A stretch of 32,767 nt of DNA, taken from contig DAIEKJ010000003.1 of assembly GCA_027350645.1 (NCBI GenBank), positions 1 through 32,767 of the forward strand, read 5' to 3'. This DNA is from Candidatus Wolfebacteria bacterium (lineage in GTDB: Bacteria > Patescibacteriota > Minisyncoccia > UBA6257 > JAGOQP01). Below, piece by piece: positions 15,882 to 17,422 of the stretch. Position 1 is the first letter of the stretch, and every line of letters starts with the position of its first letter. Both the position numbers and the translations under genes were made by a program. The notes beneath the pieces were generated by a model, which saw nothing but the letters and a program-made list of their open reading frames with translations, had not been told where the DNA came from and did not search any database.

Positions 15882-17422
15882 TGTGTAGTTGTTTCACGCA
15901 CAGCTTCCGCTACACGTGCCTTGTTACGACTTCACCCGTGTCACCGAACCCAGGCTGATCCCTAAAAAGAGACTTTACCTGTTCCCGGCTCCCCTGGTGT
16001 GACGGGCGGTGAGTACAAGACTCGAGAACGTATTCACCGCGGCGTGCTGATCCGCGATTACTAGCGATTCCGACTTCAAGGAGTCGAGTTGCAGACTCCT
16101 ATCCGAACTGGGGCCGACTTTTTGGGATTGGCTCCACCTTACGGCTTGGCAACCCTTTGTATCGGCCATTGTAGCATGAGTGTTGCCCAGGGTATCAAAG
16201 GGCCACGCTGATTTGACGTCATCCCCGCTTCCTCCCCCCTCTTTTGATCCGAATGTTTTTTAACATTCCGGTCAAAGGAGGGGGGTGGTCTTGTCAGACA
16301 CTTGTAACTGACAACAGGGGTTGCGCTCGTTACCCCACTGAAGGGAACAACTCAAGCCACGAGCTGACGACAACCGTGCAGCACCTGTCCTATTGCCCTA
16401 ATTAAAAACTAAGGAGATATTCTTTTCAAAATATCGTCAATAAGATTTCTAACCCTGGTGAGGTGTTTCGCTTACCGTCGAATTAAACCTCATGCTCCAC
16501 CGCTTGTGCGAGTCCCCGTCTATTCCTTTGAGTTTTAGTCTTGCGACCGTACTTCCCAGGCGGTCTACTTAACGCGTTAGCTTCGCCGCTGAAAGGGTCG
16601 ATACTTCCAACAGCTAGTAGACATCGTTTAGGGCGTGGACTACAAGGGTATCTAATCCTTTTTGCTCCCCACGCTTTCGCGCCTCAGAGTCAGGAATGCA
16701 CCAGTAAGCTGCCTTCGCCTTTGGTGTTCCGCACGATATCAACGGATTTCACCCCTACACCGTGCGTTCCGCTTACCTCTTGCACCCTCCAGCAAAGCCG
16801 TATCTCGTGCGGCCGTACCGTTAAGCGGTACGATTTAACACAAGACGCACTCTGCCTCCTACGCGCCCTTTACGCCCAATAAATCCGGATAACGCTCGAG
16901 GTCTCTGTATTACCGCTGCTGCTGGCACAGAGTTAGCAACCTCTTATTCCTATGGTACCGTCAGTCCCGATAAACGGGATTTCTTCCCACAGAAAAGGAG
17001 TTTACAACCCGAAGGCCTTCATCCTCCACGCGGCGTCGCTCCATCAGGCTTTCGCCCATTGTGGAATATTCTCGACTGCTGCCACCCGTAGGTGTACGAG
17101 CCGTGTCTCAGTCTCGTCGTCGGGGATCAGCCTCTCAGCCCCCCTACCGGTCATAGCCTTGGTGAGCCATTACCTCACCAACTAGCTGATCGGACCTAAG
17201 CCAATCTCAAAGCGTCTTACGACTTTCCTCTTACGAGCGTATGGGGAATTACCTAACCTTTCGGCTAGCTATGCCCCACTTCGAGGTATGTACTAAGGTG
17301 TTACTGACTCGTTCGCCACTCTCGCCAAAATTCTCTTGCGAGAACTTTGGCGAGCGTTCGACTTGCATGCCTTATCCACGCCGCCAGCGTTCATCCTGAG
17401 CTAGGATCAAACTCTCCAAAAA
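15882..17422 (-). rRNA. rrs: 16S ribosomal RNA, apparently full length (~1541 nt)
   Basis: minus strand contains AGAGTTTGATCCTAGCTCAG, GTGCCAGCAGCAGCGGTAATAC, GGATTAGATACCCTTGTAGTCC, CACCGCCCGTCACACC, GTCGTAACAAGG and helix 45 with GGAA loop; ends placed by alignment to remembered E. coli numbering. Confidence 0.97.

Follow-up and report, generated by a model that had tools for sequence, protein, structure and literature searches.

The anti-Shine-Dalgarno (anti-SD) sequence of 16S rRNA is treated as a near-universal mark of the bacterial ribosome and is assumed by gene finders and translation models, and its loss is known in Bacteroidetes, mollicutes, and endosymbionts. Bacteria and haloarchaea that use leaderless or otherwise SD-independent initiation generally retain the 16S anti-SD. 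The mRNAs of mammalian mitochondria are essentially leaderless. Amin et al. (2018, PMC6107228) reported 128 taxa that lack the anti-SD, chiefly Chryseobacterium, Elizabethkingia, Riemerella, Blattabacterium, Mycoplasma, and Carsonella, and the text of that paper names no CPR taxon. The consensus anti-SD has also been described as missing in some bacterial 16S rRNAs (Lim et al. 2012, as related in a citing paper). Mammalian mitochondrial SSU rRNA has no anti-SD, and ERAL1 still binds its helix 45 (PMC10582724). As for CPR bacteria, the 3′ ends of their 16S rRNAs are often incompletely annotated according to PMC12641178, where Shine-Dalgarno is nowhere mentioned, and a partial literature search on anti-SD, SD, and leaderless initiation yielded no report of anti-SD loss in CPR, Patescibacteria, or Parcubacteria.

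The 16S rRNA gene described here lies in a window of 32,767 nucleotides, which is the whole stretch of DNA analysed, from a Candidatus Wolfebacteria bacterium. The genome of the window (G000) is a 632-kb assembly of 85 contigs with 90.17% completeness, in which an assembly-wide search found one 16S copy. The gene and the elements around it are as follows.

15735..15750, minus strand: terminator-like hairpin GGGGGCAAGCCCCC with a T-rich run after it, at the end of a transcription unit that holds the 16S alone (sequence and fold)
15771..15787, minus strand: 3′ arm (core) of the pre-16S leader-trailer processing stem (duplex prediction)
15853..15871, minus strand: small trailer hairpin CTCGCCTTTTTGAGGCGAG, just 3′ of the 16S tail (fold)
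15882..15895, minus strand: 16S 3′ tail GAAACAACTACACA (E. coli: GGATCACCTCCTTA), G1529-A1542, anti-SD absent (sequence, comparison with relatives)
15898..15915, minus strand: helix 45 core with the GGAA loop (KsgA target), intact (sequence; helical in the fold of the 3′ minor domain)
15882..17422, minus strand: full-length 16S rRNA gene, the one copy found (Rfam match to RF00177 over model 1-1533, 1416.5 bits; sole match in the assembly)
17519..17535, minus strand: 5′ arm (core) of the pre-16S leader-trailer processing stem (duplex prediction)
17583..17588, minus strand: -10 box TATACT of the 16S promoter (sequence; consensus spacing; identical hexamer enriched just upstream of ATGs)
17605..17610, minus strand: 16S promoter, -35 hexamer TTGACA (sequence; spaced from the -10 box as in the consensus)

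Since a dedicated promoter, a long stem between leader and trailer, and a terminator-like hairpin accompany the gene, and Rfam search found no 23S within the window, the gene looks like a complete 16S-only unit, neither a fragment nor a pseudogene. The full-length match to the SSU covariance model and the intact helix 45 are those of a functional bacterial 16S rRNA. Three genes flanking the unit on both sides encode LamG-like lectin domains (window 8258-10997 and 19003-20289), and two surface proteins of ~1050 aa with PG_binding/He_PIG domains are encoded at 25226-31549.

The minus strand from 15929 to 15881 reads gtcgtaacaagg-cacgtgtagc-ggaa-gctgtgcgtg-aaacaactacacag, and the mature 16S is predicted to end in ...ACAACUACACA. 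CCUCC is missing from the 13-nt tail 3′ of helix 45. In E. coli numbering, positions 1535 and 1538 are both A, just as an earlier note on this DNA had read them, and C1536 and C1539 are retained; positions 1530 (G in E. coli) and 1532 (U in E. coli) are also A, which means that GAUCA is altered besides CCUCC. The two broader claims of that note, i.e., a tail lacking the canonical anti-SD and an intact helix 45 with its GGAA loop (15915-15898), are borne out, the former by the sequence together with the tails of relatives and the latter by sequence and fold.

The altered tail is shared by relatives. CCTCC is absent in all 26 readable 16S tails of the window's order, the GAAACAATTA tail, mostly with C next, recurs in seven further genomes of the family, and exact matching of the family and near-family tail against the GTDB genome collection gave 27 records, including Candidatus Wolfebacteria, Colwellbacteria, and Liptonbacteria (Paceibacterota, CPR). 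No 16S was recovered from the closed family genome G003, 72 kb of which is masked; the masking probably accounts for the missing gene. The class was sampled with 201 genomes, of which 134 had the 16S anchor, and hand counting of the tails listed for ~79 of them gave 39 canonical, 7 TCTCC, and 33 neither. Class members such as G190, G270, G307, and G241 have near-palindromic tails like TTCAATTTGAA or TCCAATTGGA, which may let a small hairpin form in the tail or the trailer. In a 16S tree constructed without the tail (a quick search, with some of the 16S genes carrying introns), “lost” versus the rest required 8 changes, at least 5 of them forced by well-supported branches, against a shuffled mean of 37.5, and the window fell in a set of 44 rows consisting of 42 lost, 1 partial, and 1 canonical. 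The GTDB order was incompletely recovered by this tree, with L002 and L003 placed elsewhere. The class tails run from canonical through TCTCC to none, with ~5-8 changes on the tree. Beyond the class, CCTCC is mostly retained, and most apparent exceptions hold it as GATTACCTCC. An early tally of the phylum had pointed to loss in many lineages, which was rejected because the re-read tails mostly keep CCTCC behind a C-to-T change, and the claim of loss is accordingly narrowed to the class and a few partly eroded families. One phylum family outside the class, f106 (L246-L259), shows partial erosion family-wide (CACTTCC, CATCTCC, CATTTCC). The clade-wide loss of the anti-SD in CPR bacteria is real; it resembles the known losses in kind; the lineage is new, and it has both intermediates and a substitute tail that is conserved.

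SD motifs before genes were scored as 4-mers at -16..-5, with control windows at -40..-29, in G000, G003, the closed genome G042 of the same order, and G392, a member of the same class with the canonical CCUCC tail; starts were fixed through ortholog alignment of G000 and G003. The motifs preceded 4 of 115 genes in G000 (3.5%), 2 of 115 in G003 (1.7%), and 1 of 78 in G042 (1.3%), none of them strong, and 1 of 45 in G392. All four counts fall below those of the control windows, and SD enrichment before genes is therefore absent. A stretch of the E. coli genome, treated with a simpler first-ATG rule, served as the positive control and gave 26/46 (57%) versus 0. In the three genomes without the anti-SD, leader duplex energies showed no dip at -14..-8, whether computed with the genome's own tail or the canonical one; the dip was slight in G392 and deep in E. 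coli (-5.4 versus about -2.5 kcal/mol), and a de novo EM motif search upstream of starts revealed no SD-like motif. A small SD peak seen in G000 and G003 under first-ATG start picking disappeared with ortholog-fixed starts. Because G392 is nearly SD-free with an intact CCUCC, the absence of SD is not caused by tail loss alone; judging from this single control genome, SD use seems to have dwindled even where the anti-SD was kept. The residual strong-SD genes of G003 are GC outliers (median 0.41 versus 0.354, p = 3e-6), which fits recent import. Among them, a few high-GC genes in G003 (L167-L195; e.g., 108781, 109971, 234428, and 462809) have perfect AAAGGAGG leaders and are probably recent imports whose SD is unusable. 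Those of G000 are not GC outliers and lie partly on contigs with few or no homologs in relatives; such contigs, C16 and C27 (L124, L155), which carry strong-SD genes and have no homologs in the two relatives analysed, are possibly contamination or mobile DNA in the MAG.

The most enriched 6-mer before starts in G000 is TATACT, which also serves as the -10 box of the 16S promoter. The pattern TANNNT occurs at exactly -12 from the ATG in 14 of 115 G000 genes, compared with 1.6 per position upstream, and the peak is also found in the two largest contigs (9/53 versus 0.9) and in other family loci (16/111 versus 4.5). A -10 box at -12 stands where it would direct transcription to start at the A of AUG, and its location suggests leaderless transcription of a sizeable set of genes, the strict signature covering only about a tenth of them (~10%) and near positions adding more. 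Leaderless initiation does not explain operon-internal starts. The region around starts is nearly unstructured, with a 40-nt MFE of -3.5 kcal/mol at the start versus -8.5 kcal/mol inside genes, and a pyrimidine occupies -1 at 92% of G000 starts, a preference consistent both with a transcription initiator and with pairing to A37 of the initiator tRNA. In G042 (L089-L108), which belongs to the same GTDB order, A rather than T precedes the start codon (69%), and the -1 pyrimidine is therefore not a rule of the order; bS21 was not found in this genome, and its 16S stands apart from the order in the tree. Covariation of position 37 of the initiator tRNA with the -1 base was considered and rejected, given that A37 is present in both the genome with T at -1 (G000) and the genome with A at -1 (G042). 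The initiator tRNA of G000 (L115:1612-1684, contig C7) has C33 in place of U33 and the T-loop TGCAAAT, and its anticodon stem carries A29-U41, which interrupts the run of three G-C pairs usual there; the initiator tRNA of G042 likewise departs from the three G-C pairs.

An Era orthologue, on which Era-dependent 30S maturation would rely, is missing almost throughout the class: only 1 of the 201 genomes had a match to TIGR00436 over the cutoff, members with canonical tails also go without, and the remaining hits are weak and fit other GTPases. The same absence is reported in PMC12641178 and PMC10582724. The order retains KsgA and a short bS1-like protein: KsgA exceeded the cutoff in 35 of 41 relatives (the incomplete assembly of the window gave a weak match only), and the bS1-like protein was found in most of the 41. 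A bS21-like protein was detected in 53 of 60 genomes at E ≤ 0.01, in 35 of them over the cutoff.

On these grounds, we consider it probable that the 16S rRNA encoded in the window is functional, that the Wolfebacteria-type CPR lineage to which it belongs has lost the anti-SD together with SD-based start selection, and that starts are most likely found without rRNA-mRNA pairing. A subset of mRNAs would begin at, or within a few bases of, the AUG, as the -10 box at -12 suggests. The remaining mRNAs would offer an unstructured, A/U-rich start region and an AUG preceded by a pyrimidine, and would probably also depend on the short bS1-like protein and on coupling to the upstream gene. As for the evolutionary route, we infer that SD use dwindled first, that Era, the reader of GAUCACCUCC, was lost in the class, and that the tail later drifted, with the window's order settling on a new and fairly conserved form, CAAUUAAACU and its variants, unused for mRNA pairing. 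The wider proposition, that a large part of a CPR class dropped the SD:anti-SD system stepwise, SD motifs before the anti-SD and on an Era-less background, and that one order fixed a conserved 3′ tail with another ribosomal role, could equally well hold or fail.

The alternative that fares best is neutral decay alone, in which the tail drifts freely once SD pairing and Era recognition are gone and no particular mode of initiation takes their place. The near absence of Era from the class, as in PMC12641178 and PMC10582724, the rarity of SD despite an intact tail, and the wide variation of tails over the class would all agree with it. The tail of the order is, however, constrained: among 34 sequences of the main clade, positions 1529, 1531, 1533, 1534, and 1537 are nearly invariant, compared with a trailer entropy of about 1.5-1.9 bits, and these are the positions that keep the canonical base, with 1535, 1536, 1538, and 1539 having changed. 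The start regions, moreover, have positive features, namely the -12 box, the -1 pyrimidine, and low structure, and we regard decay alone as improbable. Given its conservation across the order, the tail must keep some function: the pairing core was lost, yet the tail has not been released.

That function might be sought in a replacement anti-SD, with the new tail (CAAUUAAACU / AAACAAYUAC) pairing with a new leader motif. The conserved tail positions throughout the order, with an entropy close to 0 at 1534 and 1537 that increases in the direction of the trailer, could be taken in its favor, and so could the tail-complementary 5-mers at -18..-4, which number 10/54 in the CAATTAAACT group (6 and 5 further upstream) and 20/111 in the family (10 and 15 further upstream). 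This excess is, however, small and sits in A/T-rich leaders, the top k-mers before starts differ from the tail complement, and none of the three genomes shows an own-tail hybridisation dip at -14..-8. With no matching leader motif at SD spacing, we hold it to be very unlikely that the new tail is a replacement anti-SD. That the tail reflects an error of assembly or sequencing, or that the gene is a pseudogene and a normal rrs lies elsewhere in the genome, is nearly refuted and hardly credible. Although the MAG is 90% complete, falls into 85 contigs, and supplies the tail from assembled sequence rather than mapped reads, every readable 16S gene of the order, across independent assemblies and named studies, has a tail of the same class, the assembly holds a single 16S, and the full-length model match, processing stem, promoter, and terminator are all intact. 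The earlier note had likewise judged random error unlikely, which the recurrence of the tail in seven other family genomes and in the 26 CCTCC-free tails of the order confirms; of the refuting outcomes it listed, the analysis disclosed none: no ACCUCC at the aligned site in relatives, no second intact rrs or other copy with CCUCC in the assembly, and no assembly break between helix 45 and the tail.

If the wider proposition about the CPR class is correct, few larger clades of cellular bacteria whose ribosomes are incapable of SD pairing would be known. A clade that holds all stages, from canonical through TCTCC to none, offers natural material to test what maintains the anti-SD, whether SD pairing, Era, or bS21, and how bacterial ribosomes pick starts without it. 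In practice, SD-based start calling is wrong for these genomes, and a strong SD in them marks imported or contaminating DNA.

The window's lineage resembles the bacteria of PMC6107228 in that helix 45 is intact, CCUCC is gone, and genes are preceded neither by SD nor by a complementary replacement motif; it differs from those taxa in being CPR (Paceibacterota), in the extent of the loss, which covers an order and much of a class, and in its graded intermediates and conserved substitute tail. The remark in the earlier note that such loss is known from reduced endosymbionts and organelles holds for the kind of loss, while the lineage here is Ca. Wolfebacteria and its kin rather than an insect endosymbiont or an organelle. 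With leaderless and SD-independent starters (Haloferax volcanii, PMC3986360; survey, PMC5397173) it shares a -10 box that fits a start at the A of AUG and leaders mostly without SD; unlike most leaderless bacteria and haloarchaea, it has lost the anti-SD, and its leaderless transcripts are predicted from sequence. Mammalian mitochondrial SSU rRNA similarly lacks the anti-SD and keeps helix 45, but the ribosome here is that of a cellular bacterium, and Era itself is absent in the class.
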